Assembly: GCF_013149295.1 (NCBI RefSeq)
Contig: NZ_JABGCB010000010.1
Location: forward strand, 1-64,000
DNA: 64,000 bases
Origin: Novosphingobium sp. SG751A
Lineage (GTDB): Bacteria; Pseudomonadota; Alphaproteobacteria; Sphingomonadales; Sphingomonadaceae
Direction: 5' to 3'
The position numbers and the translations under genes are program-made. Of this stretch, positions 8,930 through 60,758 are shown piece after piece. Every line of letters starts with the position of its first letter. The stretch's first letter is position 1. The notes beneath the pieces are model-generated. The model saw only the letters and a program-made list of their open reading frames with translations, was not told where the DNA came from and ran no database searches.

Positions 8930-9187
8930 ATGCGCGCCATGCAGAGCGAAAACCCCTTCCTTGCCGATTTCGTGAAGCTGATGAACAGCGCCGCCGGGAC
9001 CTTTGCCGGGGCCACGCGCGAAGCGCGTGATGCCGCACGCGAACGTTTCCGTGAGGCTTTTGGCGGTCTCGATTTCGTCAGCCGCGAAGAATTCGACACG
9101 GTGAAAGCCATGGCCGCCACGGCCCGCGAAGAAGTCGAAGTGCTTAAAGAAAAGCTGGCCGCGCTTGAAGCCAAGATCGGCGGCTGA
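8930..9187 (+). CDS. ubiK: Ubiquinone biosynthesis accessory factor UbiK (BMFP domain)
   Basis: An 85-residue helical protein. The segment NPFLADFVKLMNSAAGTFAG, followed by an amphipathic region and a C-terminal coiled coil (REEVEVLKEKLAALEAKIGG), matches UbiK/YqiC. UbiK assists the ubiquinone hydroxylation complex and binds lipid, and it was earlier described as a membrane fusogenic coiled-coil protein. An in-frame ATG at 8939 would give the more typical MQSENPF start; neither has a strong ribosome site. A small Cys-His protein gene follows at once. Confidence 0.88.
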   Translation: MRAMQSENPFLADFVKLMNSAAGTFAGATREARDAARERFREAFGGLDFVSREEFDTVKAMAATAREEVEVLKEKLAALEAKIGG

Positions 9188-9401: not shown

Positions 9402-12400
9402 TTAAACCCCGCCTTCCGGCGCGGAAACCCGCCCCGTCCGCTCCAGCTTGCCCCAGCCGGTGCCGACCCCGCGCACAGCGGCGGCCACAGCCCGGATCAC
9501 CACCGAATACATCAATTGGCGATAGACGAAGCGCTGGGCCAGCAGGAGGAAGGGGCGGAATTTCTTGTCGCGCACATCCATGCGATAGGCGATCCAGCCG
9601 CACACAAGATCAATGGACGAAAACGCCGCCCAATAGACGGCCATGCGCAGCACGTCGGTCTGGGTCTGGGCCCAGCCATGCTGGATCACGCGGGTGATCG
9701 TTCCCAGAATCGAGACGACCAGCGCCAGATCGATCGTGGGCGAAATGACAGCAAAGAGGATCTGGAACACCCAGGCCTGCGGCACGCCGATAAAGGCCAG
9801 GCCCCCCGGCTTGCCCCGACGCATGATCTTGCGATGCTTCCACAGGCATTGCAGCGTGCCATAGGACCAGCGGAAGCGTTGCTTGGACAGAGCGCCAAAG
9901 CTCTCGGGCGCCTCGGTCCACGCCACAGCCTCCTCGTCATAGGCGACCTTCCACTTCTTGCGCTGGATGGCGATGGTCAGATCCTGATCCTCGGCCAGCG
10001 TGTCTTCGGGATAGCCATTGACGCTTTCCAGAGCCGTGCGCCGCCATGCGCCAACCGCGCCCGGCACCACCATGATCGCGTCGAACCGGGTCAGCGCGCG
10101 ACGCTCGATATTTTGGGCCGTGGTATATTCCACCGCCTGCCAGCGGGTGACCAGATTGACCCGGTTGCCCACCTTGGCGTTGCCCGCCACCGCGCCGATT
10201 TTCGGATCGATGAACCAGCGGACAAGGCGCAGGATCGTTTCTTTTTCAAACTGCGTATCGGCGTCCAGCGCGACGATGATCTCGCCGGTGGCTTCCTTGA
10301 GTGCCTTGTTCAGCGCGCTCGCCTTGCCGCCATTGACCAGCGTCATCAGCCGCACGCGCGGATTGTCGCCGAATTTCTCGGTGACGATTGCGCTGGTCTG
10401 ATCCTTCGATCCATCGTCCACCACGATCACGTCGAGATAGGGATAGGTCGATTCCAGAATACGCTTCACGCTGCTCTCGATCACCTTCTCCTCGTTGAAA
10501 CACGGGATGATGACGGTGACCTTGGGGCGGAAGGTGGCATCGGGCGTGGGCGCCTTGCGCTTGGCCGGCAGCATGGCCAGCGCCACCAGCGTGACCGAGC
10601 GCAGTACGCCCAGCGCGATGGCGAAGAAGAACGACCAGTTGAGCACCACGATCATCACCCCGATCGAGGTGAAGGCGAAAACGTCGGCCCGCACCGCCAG
10701 CAGGTCATAGCCTTTGACCGGCGGCATAACCTGATCGGGCGTCAGCCCGGCCAGTTCGGCTACGGAGACGAATTTGTACCCTTGCTGGCGCAGCGCGACG
10801 ATGATGCCGGGCAGGGCGGTCACGGTCTGCTCGCGGTCGCCGCCGCCATCGTGCAGCAGGATGATGTTGCCTGAATAGGCCGGACGCCCTTCCTTGACCT
10901 GGGCCAGCGTGGAATCGACGATATGCTGCACGCCGGGGCGCATCCAGTCATCGGGGTCCACATGCAGGCCTACGACCGTATAGCCATGCTCCTGCGCGAT
11001 TTGCGCGGGGACCAGTTCGTCGGCGGTGGTGGGTTCGGCGTCGCCGAAATAGGGCGCGCGAAACAGGCGCATCGAACGGCCCGTATAGGCCTCGACCAGC
11101 CGCTGGGTCGCGTTCAGTTCAAGCCTTATGCCGGTTTCCGAGGAATTGGCCATGTTGGGGTGAGTATAGGAGTGGTTGCCGATCTCCATCCCTGAGGCGA
11201 CCATGCGTTGCAGAATGGCCCGGTTCGATACCCCGTTCTCGCCAATGACGAAAAAGGTAGCAGGCACCTTGTATTGTTCGAGGATCGAGAGGATCTTGGG
11301 CGTCCAGATCGCGTCCGGCCCATCGTCAAAGGTCAGCGCGACCTTTTTTTCCGCATAGCCTGTGCGCTGAACCTTATAGGGCGTGGGCAGGCTGTCATAG
11401 GCCATGGCCGAAACCAGCCCGGTCTTGGGGTCAAAGCTCAGCTTGCGCTCGCCCTCACGCGGGGTCGAGGTGATGCGCAGGATTTCGCCCGCGCCTTCCA
11501 CGTCTGCATTGGCGGTCTGGGCGATGTGGCTCAGATCGGGAAAAGGGTTCTGCCTGCCCCCGCTGCGCCAGCTTTGCAGCGCCTGCCAGAAACCGGGGTC
11601 CTCGGTGCCCAGGCGCCAGAGCGCGATATTGCCCACGCCCAATTGCGAAAGGATGCGCATCTGGTTCCAGCTTGCCGCCGCATCGACCATCCACACGTCA
11701 TGGCGCTGGCCATTTTCGAGGAAGGAGAAGCCGGTGTTGCCGCTGGCCTTGTCATAGGTGGGTGTGGCGGAGGAATCATGAGCCGAAAGCCACGCTTCTT
11801 CGACGGTCAGGCTCTCAGCGGCATTCTTGCCGTCCGGGCCGGGGTGCCAGTCATAGGCATAGGAGCCCAGCGCGATGATGACCTTGTCGGCGGGCATGTT
11901 GCCGATGGCTTTGCGGACCTTTGATGCGAACCAGTCGTTCGAGGCGATGGGGCCGGGGTTCCCGCTGGCCCAATGCTCGTCATAGGCCATCAGGATGATC
12001 TTGTCGGCCACGGCCGCAAATTGCGAAGGCGACCAGCCGTCGCCCTCCATCGGCAGGGTGACGGCAACAACCTGTCCGGTGGGATCGAGCGCGCGCTCGA
12101 CCTCGGCGATCATCGCGCGATAGGCGGGAATGTCGCTGGGCCGCAAGTCTTCAAAGTCGAAGATGATGCCGGCATCGCCCGATTTCTTCAGGTAGTCGAG
12201 CAATTGCCCGATCAACGCCTTGCGCTTGGCTTTGCTGGCGAAAAGCGCGATGGCGGCGGGGCGCGAAAAGCCCTTGTCATCGACATTCTGCAGCACCGGC
12301 ACCACCAGCGGGCGATGCAGCGCCGAAAGCAGGATGCGCCGGAGAGGGCGATCCTCGCTGACATGCAGGTTGCCCGCCATATCGATGTTGAGCGAGGTGG

Positions 12401-12791
12401 GGGCCACCCAGTCGACCTGGTTGATATGACGCAGCAGCGATGGCGCGGAGGCATCCGACCAGTTCGAATAGAAGGCGACGGTGATCGTCTGGCCCTTGCT
12501 GTTCGCGCGCTGTTTGGGCGGGGTGCTGAACATGCGCGAGACGGAATGCGACAGGCGCGAGACCTGCGTGCGCATAGGCAACGCTGTGCGCCGTTCAAAC
12601 CCGAGAGGCAGCGGAGAGGGCGCAGGAATATGCACCACGGTCGTGGCAAAGGCGATGGCGGCCACCACCAGCGCGATAAGCCCGAAGAAGGTCAACCGCC
12701 GCGTCCAGCGCCGACGGCGCCCCGAGGGATCGAAAAATACTGGTCTGGACAAGTCCGCCCCACCTTTACACTGCGAAGACAGGCGCTTCAT
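9402..12791 (-). CDS. Trifunctional membrane enzyme: GH18-like + polysaccharide deacetylase + GT2 synthase
   Basis: A protein of about 1129 residues with three catalytic units. After one N-terminal membrane helix (RRLTFFGLIALVVAAIAFA), a GH18-like domain (about 100-420) carries AGIIFDFEDL with the expected catalytic Glu. A NodB/CE4 deacetylase (about 480-690) keeps all motifs: TFDDGPD, HSYTH, RAPYFGD, DPDDW and LLHDGGG. A processive GT2 domain (about 755-985) has IIPCFNEE, VVDDGS, LDADTQ, AEDQD and QRFRW, and is flanked by membrane helices. The set implies synthesis, deacetylation and trimming of a beta-1,4 or beta-1,6 amino sugar polymer such as chitin-like or PNAG-like material. The start at 12791 follows AAAGGG; the frame is open to 12881, and a TTG at about 12752 is also possible. 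Confidence 0.85.
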   Translation of the reverse strand: MKRLSSQCKGGADLSRPVFFDPSGRRRRWTRRLTFFGLIALVVAAIAFATTVVHIPAPSPLPLGFERRTALPMRTQVSRLSHSVSRMFSTPPKQRANSKGQTITVAFYSNWSDASAPSLLRHINQVDWVAPTSLNIDMAGNLHVSEDRPLRRILLSALHRPLVVPVLQNVDDKGFSRPAAIALFASKAKRKALIGQLLDYLKKSGDAGIIFDFEDLRPSDIPAYRAMIAEVERALDPTGQVVAVTLPMEGDGWSPSQFAAVADKIILMAYDEHWASGNPGPIASNDWFASKVRKAIGNMPADKVIIALGSYAYDWHPGPDGKNAAESLTVEEAWLSAHDSSATPTYDKASGNTGFSFLENGQRHDVWMVDAAASWNQMRILSQLGVGNIALWRLGTEDPGFWQALQSWRSGGRQNPFPDLSHIAQTANADVEGAGEILRITSTPREGERKLSFDPKTGLVSAMAYDSLPTPYKVQRTGYAEKKVALTFDDGPDAIWTPKILSILEQYKVPATFFVIGENGVSNRAILQRMVASGMEIGNHSYTHPNMANSSETGIRLELNATQRLVEAYTGRSMRLFRAPYFGDAEPTTADELVPAQIAQEHGYTVVGLHVDPDDWMRPGVQHIVDSTLAQVKEGRPAYSGNIILLHDGGGDREQTVTALPGIIVALRQQGYKFVSVAELAGLTPDQVMPPVKGYDLLAVRADVFAFTSIGVMIVVLNWSFFFAIALGVLRSVTLVALAMLPAKRKAPTPDATFRPKVTVIIPCFNEEKVIESSVKRILESTYPYLDVIVVDDGSKDQTSAIVTEKFGDNPRVRLMTLVNGGKASALNKALKEATGEIIVALDADTQFEKETILRLVRWFIDPKIGAVAGNAKVGNRVNLVTRWQAVEYTTAQNIERRALTRFDAIMVVPGAVGAWRRTALESVNGYPEDTLAEDQDLTIAIQRKKWKVAYDEEAVAWTEAPESFGALSKQRFRWSYGTLQCLWKHRKIMRRGKPGGLAFIGVPQAWVFQILFAVISPTIDLALVVSILGTITRVIQHGWAQTQTDVLRMAVYWAAFSSIDLVCGWIAYRMDVRDKKFRPFLLLAQRFVYRQLMYSVVIRAVAAAVRGVGTGWGKLERTGRVSAPEGGV

Positions 12792-12885
12792 CCCGAGCGC
12801 CCTTTGCGCCGTCTCTAGCATCGCCAGCCTTCGCCGGAAAGCGGCGGAAATCATCCCTGCGCGCATTCTTCCCCAATTCAACGAA

Positions 12886-12938: not shown

Positions 12939-14453
12939 TCAGGCGGCCAGAGTGTTGAGGATGGGGGCCGGCCCGCTCAGCCGTACCGCAGCCCCGCCGC
13001 GCCGCCGCCGGGCGATCCATTCGCCCAGCATTTCCGCCGTCGTGTGGTCGATGCCATGCACATCTTTCAGATCCAGATGGATTGCGCGATCCGCAGGCAC
13101 GCTTTCCAGACGGTTGGTCAGCTTGGTCAGGCTGAGGAAAGTGGCCGAACCCTGGAGGGCAACGTGATGCCCATCGTCGGTGTGCTTTTCCTCGACGCCC
13201 AGCCGCAGCCCCTTGGCCAGCGGGATCAGTTCCACCAGCGAGAGCAGCAGGCCCGCGATCACGCCCGTCAGCAGGTCCTTGCCCACCACCAGCGCGAAAG
13301 TGACGACCCAGATCGCCGCCGGGATCACGCCATAGTTGTGGAACAGATGCGTGACATGCTTGAGGCTGACCAGACGCCAGCCGGTGACGACGAGAACGCC
13401 GCCCAATGCCGCCATCGGCACTTCGCGCAGCAGCCAGGGCAGCAGCGCGACAAAGGCCAGAATCCACACGCCGTGCAGGATGGCCGACAACCGCGTCATC
13501 GCGCCTGCCTGCACATTGGCCGAAGAACGCACGATCACGCCCGTCATCGGCAAAGCGCCCACCGCGCCGCACAGCATGTTGCCGATTCCCTGCGCCCACA
13601 ATTCCTTGTTGTAATTGGTGCGCACGCCATCATGCATACGATCCACCGCAGCGGCCGAGAGCAGCGTTTCGGCGCTGGCGATAAAGGCGATGGCGATGGC
13701 CGCGGTAATGACCGCCGAATTGCCCAGCGGAGCGAAGAAGCCCGCGCCCGGCGTGCCAAAGGCGGCTGCCAGCGATTCGGGCACCGCGATGCGCGTGACG
13801 TTCATGCCAAAGCTGGCCGCGATGATCGTGGCCGCACCCACGCCCAGCAGCGCGCCGGGAACCAGCGCGAGCTTTTTCGGGCGCCACTTTTCCCATGCCA
13901 GCATGACAAGGATCGTGGTCAGGCCAAGGCCGAGCGCCATTTCGGTCGAGCGGATGTCGGGCGAAAGGCCCAGCACGCGCCCCGGAATGGCCGCCAGATT
14001 GGCCAGCCCGTTCGACATCGGCTTGGCGTCAAACAGGATGTGGAACTGGCCCAGCACGATCAGCGCGCCAATGCCCGCCAACATGCCATGGACCACGGCC
14101 GGGCTGATCGAGCGGAAGAGGCCGCCAAGGCGCGCCACGCCCGCTACCAGCTGAATAGCGCCCGCCAGCACCAGCATCGGCCCCAGCGCCGAAAGCCCGT
14201 GATCGCGCACGAATTCGAACACGATCACCGCCAGACCCGCCGCCGGGCCCGACACCTGCAAGGGCGAACCGGCCAGTGCGCCCACGATAATGCCGCCGAT
14301 CAGGCCTGTTACCAGGCCTTTCTCCGGCGGCACGCCCGAGGCGATGGCGATGCCCATGCAAAGAGGCATCGCCACCAGAAAGACGACAATGGAGGCGGTG
14401 AAATCGCGCGCCAGAAAGGCGCCGATCCCGCTCTTTTGCGCCGTCTGGCTCAT
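12939..14453 (-). CDS. SulP family inorganic anion transporter with STAS domain
   Basis: A 504-residue transporter with about 10-12 membrane segments. SIVVFLVAMPLCMGIAIASG and GSPLQVSGPAAGLAV are SulP signatures, and LPMTGVIVRSSANVQAGA is the conserved middle motif. A C-terminal STAS domain follows (AIHLDLKDVHGIDHTTAEML). SulP proteins move sulfate, bicarbonate or chloride. Here the start codon overlaps the stop of a beta-carbonic anhydrase gene by 4 bp (ATGA), so bicarbonate is the likely substrate by context, as in other SulP-carbonic anhydrase pairs. A terminator follows the gene. Confidence 0.92.
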   Translation of the reverse strand: MSQTAQKSGIGAFLARDFTASIVVFLVAMPLCMGIAIASGVPPEKGLVTGLIGGIIVGALAGSPLQVSGPAAGLAVIVFEFVRDHGLSALGPMLVLAGAIQLVAGVARLGGLFRSISPAVVHGMLAGIGALIVLGQFHILFDAKPMSNGLANLAAIPGRVLGLSPDIRSTEMALGLGLTTILVMLAWEKWRPKKLALVPGALLGVGAATIIAASFGMNVTRIAVPESLAAAFGTPGAGFFAPLGNSAVITAAIAIAFIASAETLLSAAAVDRMHDGVRTNYNKELWAQGIGNMLCGAVGALPMTGVIVRSSANVQAGAMTRLSAILHGVWILAFVALLPWLLREVPMAALGGVLVVTGWRLVSLKHVTHLFHNYGVIPAAIWVVTFALVVGKDLLTGVIAGLLLSLVELIPLAKGLRLGVEEKHTDDGHHVALQGSATFLSLTKLTNRLESVPADRAIHLDLKDVHGIDHTTAEMLGEWIARRRRGGAAVRLSGPAPILNTLAA

Positions 14454-15145
14454 TCGGCCGCCTCCGCGACGAGGGTTTCGTCGGCGATCCGGCGCGAGGC
14501 AGGCATGGCGACAGGCAGCGGGGCGTCTTCGCGCATCGGCACGAAATGGCCGGTGTCGCCATCAAGGCCCAGCACCTGCCCGGCATGAATATCGACGAAC
14601 CAGCCGTGCAGCGCCATTTCGCCGCGCGCAATGGCCGAGGCCACCGAGGGGTGGGTGCGCAGATGGGCGATCTGGGCGATGATGTTTTCCAGCGTGATTG
14701 CGCGGACGCGTTCCTTGTCCTGCAAATGGCCCTTGCAGGTCGAAACGATGTGTTCGGCCGCTGCGCCATGGTCCAGCCACGCCTTTACGTTGGGCATACG
14801 CTCAAGACCCACGGGGTTGGACAGCGCCTTCATCGCGCCGCAATCTGAATGACCGCACACAATGATGTCGCGTACGCCAAGAGCGGCCACTGCATATTCC
14901 ACCGTGGCCGACACGCCGCCAAGCTGGGTGCCGTAGCTGGGCACCATATTGCCTGCGTTGCGGCATACGAAGAGGTCGCCGGGCTGTGCCTGAAGGATCT
15001 GTTCGGGCACAATGCGCGAGTCAGCGCAGGAAATCATCAGCGCCTTGGGGAATTGCCCATGGGTGGTCAATTTGTTGAACAGCTCGCCACTGGCCGGAAA
15101 AGTGGTCTTTTCAAAGCTGAATACGCGGCCAATCAGTTCGTTCAT
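14450..15145 (-). CDS. Beta-class carbonic anhydrase
   Basis: A 231-residue enzyme that interconverts CO2 and bicarbonate. Zinc ligands are in ISCADSR (Cys-x-Asp-x-Arg dyad) and CGHSDCGAMKAL (His and Cys). The rest, including GDLFVCRNAGNMVP, SATVEYAVAALGVRDIIVCG and LHGWFVDIHAGQVLGLD, matches the beta class. The ATG at 15145 (MNELIGRVFSFE) has AAAGGTG upstream; an in-frame upstream extension is unlikely. It is the first gene of a two-gene operon with the SulP transporter, consistent with coupling bicarbonate uptake to hydration. Confidence 0.95.
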   Translation of the reverse strand: MNELIGRVFSFEKTTFPASGELFNKLTTHGQFPKALMISCADSRIVPEQILQAQPGDLFVCRNAGNMVPSYGTQLGGVSATVEYAVAALGVRDIIVCGHSDCGAMKALSNPVGLERMPNVKAWLDHGAAAEHIVSTCKGHLQDKERVRAITLENIIAQIAHLRTHPSVASAIARGEMALHGWFVDIHAGQVLGLDGDTGHFVPMREDAPLPVAMPASRRIADETLVAEAAE

Positions 15146-15278
15146 GGTCACACCTTTCGATCTGTTTGCCTGCCGCAAGGGGGGCTGGCTGATGAGATCA
15201 ATCTATGTGTCCGATTTTGCTATGACCGCGCGGCTGTGTAAGGAAGTGTTGCTAAAAACTGAGCGCCACATGAACCAC

Positions 15279-39314: not shown

Positions 39315-41225
39315 TTAAAATTCCGACCAGTCGTCCTCTATTTTCAATGCCGTAGCCCCCACCGATGACGCACGCCGGGCCGAGAAGGAGGGCAGGGCCA
39401 GATCGTCCTGATTGACGGGCACCGGCGCGCGCGGTGTGATGGCCTTGCTCTGTGCACGCGCAGGGGCGCCGCCGCCCGTCCGGTTCATTTCAAACCGGCG
39501 CAATTGTTCGACCAACCGCTGCGTTTCGCCCGACAGCGTATGCGTGCTGGCGGTGCTTTGTTCGACCATCGAGGCGTTCTGCTGGGTGAACTGATCCATC
39601 GAATTCATCATCGCCGAGATTTCCTCGACATTTGACGACTGCTTCTGCGCGGCTTCCGCGATCTGTTCGACCAGCTCGGAAATCTGCGCAACCTCGCCAA
39701 CGATCTGGCGCAGCGCGTCGCCGCTGGCGCTGGCCAGAGCCACGCCGGTTGAAACCTGATCGTTCGATGTGGTGATCAGCGCACGAATGTCCTTGGCCGC
39801 GTCCGCGCTGCGTTGAGCCAGCGCGCGCACCTCGTTGGCGACCACGGCAAAGCCTTTGCCCGCATCCCCCGCGCGTGCCGCCTCGACGCCCGCGTTCAGC
39901 GCCAAGAGGTTGGTCTGGAACGCGATGCCGTCGATCACGCTGACAATATCGGCCATTTCGCGGCTCGACGCTTCGATGGCTTGCAGCCCGTGGACTGCCT
40001 GCTCGGCCTGCTGGTCGGCGGCTTCGGCGGTGTTGCGCGCCACGGCAAGGCGGCTGCTGGTCTGGCGGGCGTTGTCGGCGGTCACGCGCACGGTGCCGCT
40101 GAATTCGTTGAGCGTGCGGCTGGTTTCGGCAATCGAGCTGGCCTGATGCTCGGTGCGGCGGGCAAGGTCGCCGCTGGCGGCTGCGATTTCGTCGGTGCCG
40201 CGGCGGATGGCGTCGCAACCGTCAACGATCTCGCGCATCACGCTGGCCAACTGGCTCACCGCCTCGTTGAAATTGACATGGAGCTGGCCCAGGCCGCCTG
40301 CGCCATTTTCCGGCACGCGATGCGTCAGATTGCCGCGCGCCAGTTCGGACAGGCCCGAACCGATGGCGTCGATGGTGATCTGGGTCTCGCGGGCGCGCTC
40401 CAGTTCGGCCTGCGTGCGCTGCTGGTCGGCGGCGAAGAGAGCCTTGAAACTGTCGAGCGCGCGGGCAAGGCTGCCCACTTCGTCCTGACGGCCCATGGCG
40501 GGGATTTCGACATGCATGTCGCCCTGAACCAGCCGGCCAACCGCCTCGCTGATCCGGGCCACGGGCCGCGCAATCGAAACCATCATCAGCCCCATCAGCC
40601 CCAGCGCCACAGCAAGCCCGGCCACGACTGCGCCGATGATGACCTTGCGCCCCTGATCGTAGATCGCGGCCGAACGCGCCGAAGCCGCGCTGGCGCCCTT
40701 GGTGTTCAGGTCGATCAGGGCAAGCAGGTCATCCTCGACCGTGTAGAAGGCAGTCAGGGAATCGCCGTCGAACATCGCCTTGGCCGCCGCCGCATCGCTG
40801 TTCGACAGGTTCAGCAATTGCTCGTTCTGGCCCAGATAGGTCTGCCAATCACCTTTCAGCTTGGCAAAGGCGGATTTTTCCTCCGGGCTCTGGCTCAGCT
40901 TGGCGGCATCTTCCATGCGGGTGGCAATGGCGGTCTGGGCCGCACGCATCAGCTTGGCCTGACGGGTCTTCATCCCCTCGGCGCTGGCGCCGACATGGGC
41001 GCTCTGTTTGATGCGATATTGCGAGACGAAGGCGTGCACATCGCCCAGCGCCTGCGAGCCGGGCAGCCAGCGCTCACGCAATTCGGTCGAGATCGCGTTG
41101 ACCTCGCCCAGTTTGACCACTGCAAAGGACCCCATCGCGGCCATGACCGCCAGAAGGATTGCAAAAGCGGCCAGAAACTTGGCCGAAATACCCATACGCA
41201 ACAAGGCAGATCTCCCCCGCGTCAT
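39315..41225 (-). CDS. Methyl-accepting chemotaxis protein
   Basis: A 636-residue chemoreceptor. A first membrane helix ([21 protein letters not shown]) is followed by a four-helix-bundle-like periplasmic domain (HBM/4HB style), a second helix ([20 protein letters not shown]), HAMP repeats and the signalling domain. The hairpin tip shows [20 protein letters not shown] and [18 protein letters not shown]. The C-terminus ends in DWSEF, matching the xWxxF pentapeptide that tethers CheR/CheB. The start is uncertain: ATG at 41225, or a later codon near MGISAKF, fits equally well. Confidence 0.93.
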
Positions 41226-58653: not shown

Positions 58654-60618
58654 TCAGGCAAGCTTGCGAAGCAGAGGAGAGTCTTGTTCCGGAGTCGCGG
58701 GCGGGGCGTCCGTCCCGATCCGGCGGCGCTCCTGTGCCAACAGCATCGCCGCCAGATAGTCAGGCACGGCGCGGCTGAAATACCAACCCTGACCCAGCGT
58801 ACAACCGGTGTCGCGCACCGCCTGCACCTGTTCCAGCGTTTCCAGCCCCTCGGCCACGATTTCCATCCCCAACGTCTTGCCCATCGCTGCCACCGCGCAA
58901 ATGATCGCATGGCTGGTGGTCCCGGCGCTCAGGCCCGAGATGAAGCTGCGGTCGATCTTGATCTTCTTGAATGGGTAGCGGTCAAGATAACCGAGGGACG
59001 AATAGCCGGTGCCGAAATCGTCCAGAGCAAAACGCACGCCGGCCCCGGCCAGCTCGTTGATGAAGGCCGAGGTATTGGGGCTGTGGTCAAGCAGCGTGGT
59101 TTCGGTGATTTCCAGCTCAAGGCGGCTGGGCGGCAATTTCGCCTCGCGCAGAGCATTGAGGATGCCCAGCGCCGCGCCCGGCGCCCGGATCTGAAGCGGT
59201 GAGAGATTGACCGCCAGTGTAACATCATCGGGCCATTCGGCGGCAACGCGGGCCGCCTTGGCCGTGATCCAGTTGCCCAGTGTGATGATCGCTCCGCTTT
59301 CCTCGGCCACGGGGATGAATTCGTCGGGGCGCAATTCGCCCTTTTCCGGGTGGAACCAGCGCACCAGCGCCTCGAACGCCCGAATGCGCCCGGTTTCCAG
59401 ATCGACCAGCGGCTGGAAATGAACCGAAAGCTCGTCGCGTTGCAGGGCAAGGCGCAGCTCGGCCTCAATCTCCTTGCGACGGATCAGGTCGCGCGTCATT
59501 GAAGGGTTGAAGCTGACGATCTGCTTGCGGCCATTCAACTTGGCATGGTTGAGCGCCAGATCGGCCCCTTGCAGCACGGCTTCCAGATCAGTGCCATGTT
59601 CGGGCAGGATCGCGATGCCGATTGAGCAGCCGATTTCCAGCCGGTCATCATCGATGCGCAGCGGACGCAGGATGTCGGTCAGGATCGCATCGGCAATCGA
59701 CTGGATATCGGTTTCGGGCCCCGCTTCAAAGGCGATGATGAATTCGTCGCCGCCAAACCGACCGATACCCGCGCCCACCGGCGCGCTGCGGCGCAGCCGC
59801 GCGGCCACTTCAACAAGGCAGCGGTCGCCCACCTGATGGCCCAGTGTGTCGTTGATTTCCTTGAACCGGTCGAGGTCGAGCCACAGGATCGCCAGCTTGT
59901 TACCTTCCGGGATCGCCACAAGGCGTTCGACCAGATGGTGATTGAGCCCCGCACGGTTGAGCAATCCGGTAACAATATCGGTGCGCGCCAGATGCTGCAT
60001 CTTTTCGGCAAGGCGCTGGCTGGTTTCCGCGCTGGAAATCGAATCGCGCAAGGTGCGGAACACGTTAAGCGTAATCGACATCATCGCGGGCAGCACAAGG
60101 AACAGCGTAAAGGCCAGCAACCGGCTTGCCAGATCCTCCTGCATTCCGGCCGCCACGATCACGGGCAGCAGCGCCAGCGACAATTGCCCGATGGCAATCG
60201 CAGGCCGCCCGGCATTGCGCGCGGCAATCCCCACCGAATAAGCAATCGCATTGCCCACCATCAGCGTGCGCACGGGTCCCGGTACGGAATGGAAAAACGT
60301 CAGGGCCGCAATCAGCCCGGCCATGATCGAATAGGAAAACGCGCCCAATTCATAAATGATTTCAAGCGCGCGCGGCTTGTTGCCCATCCATCGGGGCAGA
60401 ATCGTCGCGCTGGCCACGCGCATCAACGCTATGGCCGACATCACCCATGCCGCCACGGTGATTTCGCGATGGCCCGATTCAATCGCGGCGGTTGCGCTGG
60501 TCAGTATCCCGCACAGCGCGCCAATCGCCAGAGACGACGGTTGCGTATAAAGCGTGGTGACCAGAATGGCTCTTGCCCGGTCATCAGCAGCATGGGTTTT
60601 GAACAAAACCCGCAACAT
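58654..60618 (-). CDS. Membrane-bound GGDEF-EAL c-di-GMP enzyme
   Basis: A 654-residue protein with about six N-terminal membrane segments (to about residue 180), then GGDEF and EAL domains. The cyclase motif is intact (GRFGGDEFIIAFE), but the RxxD inhibitory site before it is absent. The EAL domain has FEALVRWF, ELEITETTLL, LDDFGTGYSSLGYL, IKIDRSF and VAEGLETLEQ, so phosphodiesterase residues are present. It may synthesise or degrade c-di-GMP, or switch. The ATG at 60618 is preferred over a TTG at 60657. Confidence 0.92.
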   Translation of the reverse strand: MLRVLFKTHAADDRARAILVTTLYTQPSSLAIGALCGILTSATAAIESGHREITVAAWVMSAIALMRVASATILPRWMGNKPRALEIIYELGAFSYSIMAGLIAALTFFHSVPGPVRTLMVGNAIAYSVGIAARNAGRPAIAIGQLSLALLPVIVAAGMQEDLASRLLAFTLFLVLPAMMSITLNVFRTLRDSISSAETSQRLAEKMQHLARTDIVTGLLNRAGLNHHLVERLVAIPEGNKLAILWLDLDRFKEINDTLGHQVGDRCLVEVAARLRRSAPVGAGIGRFGGDEFIIAFEAGPETDIQSIADAILTDILRPLRIDDDRLEIGCSIGIAILPEHGTDLEAVLQGADLALNHAKLNGRKQIVSFNPSMTRDLIRRKEIEAELRLALQRDELSVHFQPLVDLETGRIRAFEALVRWFHPEKGELRPDEFIPVAEESGAIITLGNWITAKAARVAAEWPDDVTLAVNLSPLQIRAPGAALGILNALREAKLPPSRLELEITETTLLDHSPNTSAFINELAGAGVRFALDDFGTGYSSLGYLDRYPFKKIKIDRSFISGLSAGTTSHAIICAVAAMGKTLGMEIVAEGLETLEQVQAVRDTGCTLGQGWYFSRAVPDYLAAMLLAQERRRIGTDAPPATPEQDSPLLRKLA

Positions 60619-60758
60619 GTCGAATAAAGGACGGATCGGACAACTCCCGTTGGACAAGGTCAGCCTAGGGAGAACTCGTCACAGATTGGTTAACGCCGAG
60701 CTACACTCTGCGACCTTTGTCGCATTTGTACAAATTTTAGCATGAGAGCCATCGGGCC

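Follow-up and report, generated by a model that had tools for sequence, protein, structure and literature searches.

A GH18-CE4-GT2 protein of Novosphingobium as a plausible self-contained synthase of a partly de-N-acetylated amino-sugar polymer

The products of the rhizobial enzymes NodB and NodC are short acylated oligosaccharides, and the hydrolase domain of PgaB in the Escherichia coli Pga system belongs to a family other than GH18. PgaB is described as a deacetylase with a C-terminal hydrolase domain whose activity has a biological role called unknown, and a legend in the same article mentions putative C-terminal hydrolase domains (PMC7112194). In Streptomyces lividans, poly-N-acetylglucosamine (PNAG) requires MatB together with MatA: F598 staining was lost in the mutants, the polymer was sensitive to dispersin B, and calcofluor staining of the matAB mutant was unchanged; the CE4 domain of MatB was reported to be nearest to PgdA, followed by chitin deacetylase and NodB, and its GT2 domain nearest to PgaC (PMC5972031). 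The combination "GH18-CE4-GT2" was tabulated in 2012 for Acetivibrio cellulolyticus ZP_09465738 (Table 4 of PMC3413522). GT2 and deacetylase domains are also treated with glycoside hydrolases in general, not as a GH18-CE4-GT2 fusion, in the relevant part of another article (PMC4928363). Our literature search found no study of what the three-domain protein does, and no product reported for it or for any relative that includes GH18. Here, we analyzed a stretch of 64,000 nucleotides from Novosphingobium sp. SG751A (contig NZ_JABGCB010000010.1, positions 1 to 64,000; hereafter, the window), which harbors a gene for a single chain with a GH18-like hydrolase, a CE4 deacetylase and a GT2 synthase domain. 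The three-domain layout is real, widespread and previously tabulated, and the window protein belongs to a known, uncharacterized class. The original prediction for this locus held that such domains are usually separate proteins, which is true of the Pga, Ica and Nod systems; the layout is less unusual than this implies, as CE4-GT2 and GH18-CE4-GT2 fusions are widespread and already tabulated.

The gene is open on the minus strand from an ATG at 12791 to a stop at 9402 and encodes 1129 residues (Table 1). An alternative upstream TTG start at 12881 is possible, and the conserved N-terminal motif (residues 17-26) lies downstream of the ATG. The three domains are found in one chain in the order GH18-CE4-GT2, the same order as in the homologs aligned or scanned. 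The CE4 domain matched Pfam Polysacc_deac_1 (E 1.7e-34, 118.9 bits, residues 480-606) and carries the five family motifs TFDD (residues 487-490), H(S/T)xxH, RxPY, DxxDW and LxH. The GT2 domain matched Pfam Glyco_tranf_2_3 (E 1.3e-34, 120.7 bits, residues 756-978), and its fold matches in a structure search were hyaluronan and cellulose synthases. It contains the D, D(x)D, ED and Q(Q/R)xRW signatures, the last as QRFRW at residues 971-975, followed by C-terminal membrane helices, a pattern from which processivity is predicted.

The GH18 domain was identified by other means, as Pfam Glyco_hydro_18 gave no match in the window protein at E 0.01. In a phmmer search of PDB sequences, the GH18 part alone matched 5jh8, annotated as "Probable chitinase" (E 3.6e-23), and SleL 4s3j (E 1.2e-21). 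Model residues 100-412 aligned with SleL 4s3j with a Z score of 34.1 (2.6 Å over 308 residues) and with 5jh8 with a Z score of 33.8 (2.2 Å over 303 residues), and Foldseek matched the GH18 part to YdhD (E 5.9e-16). The canonical GH18 motif, DGxDxDxE, is partly kept as AGIIFDFE. The last Asp of the motif (D212), the catalytic E214, the MxYD at residues 268-271 and the barrel-end W392 are all retained, and the phmmer alignment places the DFE of the window protein opposite the DFE of 5jh8 and of two SleL proteins. The TIM barrel, DxE, MxYD and barrel-end Trp assign the domain to GH18, but the full DGxDxDxE motif is lacking and the score lies under the Glyco_hydro_18 cut-off of 29.6, which full-length relatives from Prevotella (85.5 bits) and Deinococcus (38.6 bits) exceed. 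The domain is a diverged family member by descent and fold, not by motif or Pfam score.

The structure was assessed using an AlphaFold model built from 22 aligned sequences, with a mean predicted local distance difference test (pLDDT) score of 78 and a predicted template modeling (pTM) score of 0.53, a value too low for trusting how the domains are positioned relative to one another. Hydropathy indicated a membrane segment centered at residues 39-50, a long hydrophobic stretch at 706-734 and another at 1006-1027. Within the C-terminal helices, only the centers 1006-1027 exceed 1.6, and 10-residue blocks have pLDDT scores of 55-82. The GH18 and CE4 domains are predicted to lie outside, in the periplasm, and the GT2 domain in the cytoplasm. 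Sequence, model and conservation all bear out the assigned domains, the order in which they follow and their topology. The original prediction had placed all three domains in one polypeptide, with the periplasmic domains ahead of the membrane synthase, and had named the motifs DFE (within FDFE, D212 and E214), TFDD and QRFRW and all five CE4 motifs. The motifs are present, the order and predicted topology are backed, and the single polypeptide was confirmed by Pfam, PDB phmmer, the AlphaFold model and conservation. The domain search and structure model that it proposed as a check recovered the three domains, GH18 through phmmer and fold and not through Pfam.

Table 1. Positions of the gene and of the regions of its 1129-residue product within the window
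Feature	Position	Strand	Basis or detail
GH18-CE4-GT2 gene	9402..12791	-	1129 aa; ORF, Pfam, model, homologs
N-terminal cytoplasmic motif PVFFDPSGRR, residues 17-26	12714..12743	-	alignment
First transmembrane helix/signal anchor, about residues 33-55	12627..12695	-	hydropathy peak 2.58 at residue 44; model helix 25-53, low confidence
GH18-like TIM barrel, residues 104-410	11562..12482	-	D212/E214 catalytic pair, YD 270-271, W392
Small beta region between GH18 and CE4, residues 430-478	11358..11504	-	model strands 436-442, 447-453, 460-467, 473-477
CE4 (NodB-homology) deacetylase domain, residues 480-682, five motifs	10746..11354	-	Pfam, NCBIfam, PDB search, alignment
Membrane helix, residues 700-740, back to cytoplasm	10572..10694	-	single model helix 695-740; hydropathy >1.6 at centers 706-734, two short breaks
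GT2 synthase domain, residues 756-985: DDG, DAD, (A)ED, QRFRW	9837..10526	-	Pfam, NCBIfam, alignment
C-terminal membrane/interface helices of synthase, residues 996-1108	9468..9806	-	model helices 996-1038, 1040-1071, 1080-1108

Conservation was examined in an alignment of 119 sequences, composed of the window protein (P0001) and 118 of 124 matching loci; L027, L036, L090, L110, L127 and L135 were left out as partial or without GH18. The rows are not independent, as most come from Sphingomonadaceae and near duplicates are included (L034 with L035, and the window protein with L037). All 119 share D489, D490, H540, H544, R578, D615 and H647, as well as the GT2 residues D843, D845, E934, D935, Q971, R972, R974 and W975. 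Position 214 is Glu in 116 rows and position 212 is Asp in 117. Mean identity to the window protein is 45% for GH18, 65% for CE4 and 73% for GT2, so the GH18 active site has stayed constant in a domain that otherwise varies. The small beta region, with a pairwise identity of 53%, is better conserved than GH18. In the N-terminal motif, F19 is found in 115, D21 in 114 and R26 in 116 rows. A motif of the form F[FY]DP[ST]GRR ahead of the first membrane helix is common to most relatives, and a Kocuria CE4-GT2 fusion without GH18 has it as FYDPSGKR. Homologs and conserved catalytic residues rule out a chance or artefactual open reading frame.

Among the matches listed, the nearest named records were Novosphingobium sediminicola (L037) and Novosphingobium sp. 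SG707 (L038), at 98% each. At E <= 1e-60, 25 of the 149 family-sample genomes had a match; at E <= 1e-80, matches were present in the samples at order (15 of 196 genomes), class (9 of 385) and phylum level (9 of 398). These samples overlap, the window genome (G000) is counted in each, and matches passing such thresholds may fall short of spanning three domains, although nearly all of those listed do span them. These matches exclude a strain-specific fusion or an assembly error. Genome contigs were also scanned using two peptide patterns derived from the sphingomonad alignment. At least 592 stretches matched a pattern and at least 407 encode a relative, not necessarily with three domains. The 80 loci kept all come from sphingomonad or unplaced Proteobacteria, Pseudomonadota or Alphaproteobacteria records, and 78 of them run from GH18 through GT2, with L090 and L110 ending with their contigs. 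The same patterns matched no stretch of viral contigs, and a phage or viral origin was rejected. Plasmid records gave 26 matches, 18 of which span 80% or more of the query, from genera including Sphingobium, Sulfitobacter, Deinococcus and Prevotella, which indicates that the class crosses phyla. Where features are listed, these plasmid homologs are mostly labeled "glycosyltransferase" or "glycosyl transferase family 2". The CDD entries cd06549 (GH18 trifunctional) and cd10962 (CE4_GT2-like) presumably comprise GH18, CE4 and GT2 proteins of unknown function, in the former with a domain order different from that of the window protein.

In order to place the domains beyond the three-domain proteins, GT2 and CE4 were compared by BLAST with a chosen reference set. 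The GT2 domain was nearest to actinobacterial CE4-GT2 fusions from Kocuria and Streptomyces (46-47%), followed by PgaC (34%, 156 bits), IcaA (127 bits) and NodC (122 bits). For CE4, the nearest reference was the corresponding domain of a Streptomyces CE4-GT2 fusion (145 bits), ahead of NodB (124 bits, 37% over 213 aa), with PgaB reaching 32 bits only; a PDB search placed it nearest to chitin and peptidoglycan deacetylases. Among the matches listed (25 of 39 families), the top NCBIfam scores were PgaC_IcaA (191.9 bits), PdaB (151.2), NodB (141.3) and NodC (120.6). Judging by their names, these are enzymes for glycans that contain N-acetylglucosamine (GlcNAc), and the window protein lies under the cut-off of each. 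NodC membership was rejected on this ground (TIGR04242, cut-off 550), as was membership in PgaC/IcaA. GT2 and CE4 trees leave the attachment points of NodC, NodB and the actinobacterial fusions unsettled.

On the basis of sequence and model, the protein combines an anchor, two predicted-periplasmic domains with intact active sites, and a processive-type GT2 domain with its own membrane helices. It is plausible, and in our judgment fairly probable, that it is a self-contained, orphan PNAG-type synthase that makes a partly de-N-acetylated polymer, the kind of product that the original prediction put forward. The GT2 domain would polymerize UDP-GlcNAc at the inner face, and the chain would pass through the membrane part of the protein itself. 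The tethered CE4 domain would strip part of the N-acetyl groups from the emerging chain, giving it positive charge, and the GH18 domain would cut the chain to set its length, release it or clear stalled chains. With all three domains working on the same chain in the same place, a separate PgaB-like protein would be unnecessary. Such a polymer would most probably belong to the envelope or the biofilm matrix. A β-1,6 linkage is about as likely as β-1,4: the former is suggested by the MatB precedent and the similarity of GT2 to PgaC, and the known specificity of GH18 and of NodB/PgdA-type CE4 enzymes is β-1,4. We place poly-GlcNAc first and leave the linkage open because MatB shows the same domain pattern together with an F598-positive, dispersin-B-sensitive polymer (PMC5972031).

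Seven relatives (L125, L126, L127, L134, L143, L144 and L145) retain the GH18 domain with Glu214 replaced and MxYD lost. CE4 motifs 1-3 and 5 are intact in these relatives and motif 4 is altered, the L145 piece being shortened, and the GT2 motifs are intact in the six whose GT2 was aligned. The first group, all but L125, comes from Sulfitobacter, Limimaricola and two other genomes of the same class and is of Rhodobacterales type; in the tree, L126 groups with Sulfitobacter at 100/99, and L127 lies outside the tree set. A DUF3131 (PF11329) sequence adjoins the target gene in all six Rhodobacterales-type loci, in one as a fragment. The DUF3131 gene overlaps the target stop by 4 bases in L134, L143 and L148 (the genome of L126), follows the target after a gap in L144, is divergent in L149 (the genome of L127), and persists as a fragment beside insertion sequences in L145. 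These six loci may stem from one event. A tblastn search with the DUF3131 protein (E 1e-8) found it absent from the loci examined outside this group, many of them short-flanked, and the protein matched no solved structure up to E 0.1. Among the ten highest-ranked of 633 papers from a literature search, none mentions DUF3131. The L145 copy, on a Sulfitobacter OXR-159 plasmid (L145:4149-7562), is split into a deacetylase and a glycosyltransferase open reading frame, with the insertion sequences downstream and with the DUF3131 remnant. In Limimaricola (L144:4500-7511), the annotated coding sequence ends in the C-terminal membrane part and similarity continues in frame.

In the remaining genome, G314 (L125; locus L150:2804-8845), the fused GH18 is degenerate and a Poly_export gene on the same strand lies 11 bases on (33.5 bits, cut-off 28). 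This gene is overlapped by an intact stand-alone GH18 gene, also on the same strand (249 bits, DGIDIDWE); gene starts in this locus were chosen mechanically. In Kocuria, the CE4-GT2 gene without GH18 has as its neighbor, in convergent orientation, a gene labeled "chitinase"; its GH18 score of 22.9 bits is under the cut-off of 29.6, and it gave no BLAST match to the window GH18 at E 1. In genome G304, a β-N-acetylglucosaminidase gene (PF07555; L153:2562-4064, minus strand) is found two open reading frames upstream, on the strand opposite to that of the target. The neighbors in G314, Kocuria and L153 link hydrolase, synthase and export elsewhere. Taken together, the G314, DUF3131 and Kocuria cases suggest that the synthase calls for an accompanying hydrolase, each case being single or made up of related loci.

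The neighborhoods of sphingomonad relatives were compared by tblastn in 80 loci (L037-L116), where mprF lies near the target in 21, virJ in 26 and both in 20; in the 56 loci for which 15 kb or more of sequence was available, the counts are 21 for mprF and 25 for virJ. Their order and orientation relative to the target vary. Two-component genes were found by similarity in 24 and 23 of the 80 loci, but these belong to large paralogous families and were not used as evidence. MprF (lysyl-phosphatidylglycerol synthase) adds lysine to phosphatidylglycerol, and a neighborhood with mprF fits a cationic-envelope role, which is an attractive reading. In samples chosen regardless of neighborhood, mprF was present in 3 of 15 target-positive and 6 of 181 target-negative genomes of the order sample (Fisher p 0.023, all 9 matches), and in 2 of 25 and 5 of 124 of the family sample (p 0.33, full-length matches only), kinship being ignored in both samples. 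Four weaker family-sample matches were dropped, one of them in target-positive G011 on a different contig from the targets. The five genomes with a target and a full-length mprF have the two 0.8-4.6 kb apart in three (G285, G259 and G251) and 171 kb apart in G094; in G067 each lies near a contig start and the distance is indeterminate. Presence is thus weakly associated, and an mprF association as a general rule is not supported. Our literature search found nothing joining mprF, Sphingomonas and polysaccharide deacetylase. We regard it as unlikely that the fused GH18 is an obligate partner for which, on decay, a stand-alone GH18 or the DUF3131 protein (as an unrecognized hydrolase) substitutes in trans, and that in sphingomonads the polymer joins MprF, AcvB/VirJ and a two-component system in a module for a cationic envelope.

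In the window itself, neither mprF nor virJ is present. Directly upstream of the target, genes for a SulP-family transporter and a carbonic anhydrase (12939-15178, minus strand) overlap by 4 bp and possibly serve bicarbonate uptake; histidine kinase and response regulator genes follow further upstream on the target strand. A small open reading frame at 8939-9187 (plus strand) may encode a BMFP/UbiK-type coiled-coil protein. The window also contains a GGDEF-EAL protein (58654-60657, minus strand) and a methyl-accepting chemotaxis protein (39315-41225, minus strand).

Several observations weigh against a PNAG-type synthase. The PgaC_IcaA score (TIGR03937) is far under its cut-off of 422.3, and in the GT2 tree PgaC/IcaA form a separate well-supported clade with the three-domain family outside. 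The CE4 and GH18 domains resemble β-1,4-acting enzymes and not PgaB. The window gene adjoins the SulP transporter and carbonic anhydrase and no polysaccharide operon. The PgaA barrel (PF21197) had no match in the window's genome, with a positive E. coli control, and mprF is absent from that genome, so the arguments that relatives offer on export and charge fail for the window. The Kocuria chitinase, under the Pfam cut-off and without a BLAST match, represents a separate GH18 branch. It is possible, though we hold it somewhat doubtful, that the product is a β-1,4 (chitin- or chitosan-like) polymer or a short oligosaccharide, made in the fashion of NodC and NodB with GH18 setting chain length. 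The proximity of CE4 to NodB and the Streptomyces fusion, its PDB neighbors among chitin and peptidoglycan deacetylases, the chitinases and SleL/YdhD among solved GH18 relatives, and a Chitin_synth_2 match above threshold (33.9 bits, cut-off 27) all agree with this alternative. However, GT2 scores higher with PgaC than with NodC in both NCBIfam and pairwise comparison, and MatB likewise has a PgdA/NodB-like CE4, yet its product stains as β-1,6 with calcofluor staining unchanged (PMC5972031).

Two further alternatives concern the role of GH18 alone. SleL acts on peptidoglycan, and as this cortex-lytic enzyme and YdhD are among the closest folds, GH18 might cut peptidoglycan locally, and not the nascent polymer, to give room for the chain or to anchor it to the wall. 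This is improbable, as chitinase 5jh8 is an equal fold match, the domain is kept across the very different envelopes of Sphingomonadaceae, Deinococcus and Prevotella, and Pfam finds no wall-binding domain in the window protein. Slightly more improbable still is a GH18 that acts as a non-catalytic binding or spacer domain, with synthesis and deacetylation as the only activities that matter. The seven relatives lacking the catalytic Glu indicate that a fused domain can survive inactive, but the near-complete retention of Glu214 at a domain identity of about 45% argues for catalysis, and where the Glu is lost a GH18 gene (G314) or a DUF3131 sequence (the other six) adjoins.

If a PNAG-type synthase is encoded here, a single polypeptide would carry out polymerization, de-N-acetylation and trimming. 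It could be expressed and examined intact, as a small model in which to ask why such machines have a hydrolase at all. Natural relatives with a degenerate GH18 offer a ready comparison, and the DUF3131 neighbors point to a function, open to experiment, for a Pfam family that has none assigned. The comparative findings on GH18 loss, DUF3131, Poly_export and mprF/virJ most deserve further work.

Among known systems, the Acetivibrio protein agrees by name with the window protein in its three catalytic modules and in their order, and it appears as a table entry among multifunctional proteins (Table 4 of PMC3413522). Rhizobial NodB and NodC resemble the window domains (CE4 124 bits, GT2 122 bits), but they are separate proteins with no GH18 annotated alongside. 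In E. coli PgaB and PgaC, as is proposed here, synthase, deacetylase and hydrolase serve one polymer, yet these are separate proteins that work with PgaA and PgaD, and the window genome does not match the Pga system, as no PgaA barrel was found. The PgaB analogy of the original prediction calls for caution on this ground and because the CE4 domain is NodB/PgdA-like (124 bits to NodB and 32 to PgaB). Divergent Gram-negative PgaB clades also have a glycosyltransferase fused to the deacetylase with no detectable pgaA or pgaD and an unproven product, but their fusions are N-terminal to the deacetylase and mostly glycosyltransferases, and the term GH18 is not in that paper (PMC7112194). MatB, compared here from its description, with a Streptomyces and a Kocuria CE4-GT2 relative used in BLAST, shares with the window protein a single chain with an extracellular CE4 and an intracellular GT2 domain separated by a membrane helix, and in both the CE4 domain is nearest to PgdA/NodB and the GT2 domain to PgaC (PMC5972031). 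It differs in having two named domains, the term GH18 appearing nowhere in the paper, in working with MatA, and in its Gram-positive host without an outer membrane, and a β-1,6 product is supported for MatB only. MatB is the best experimental precedent for the window protein.

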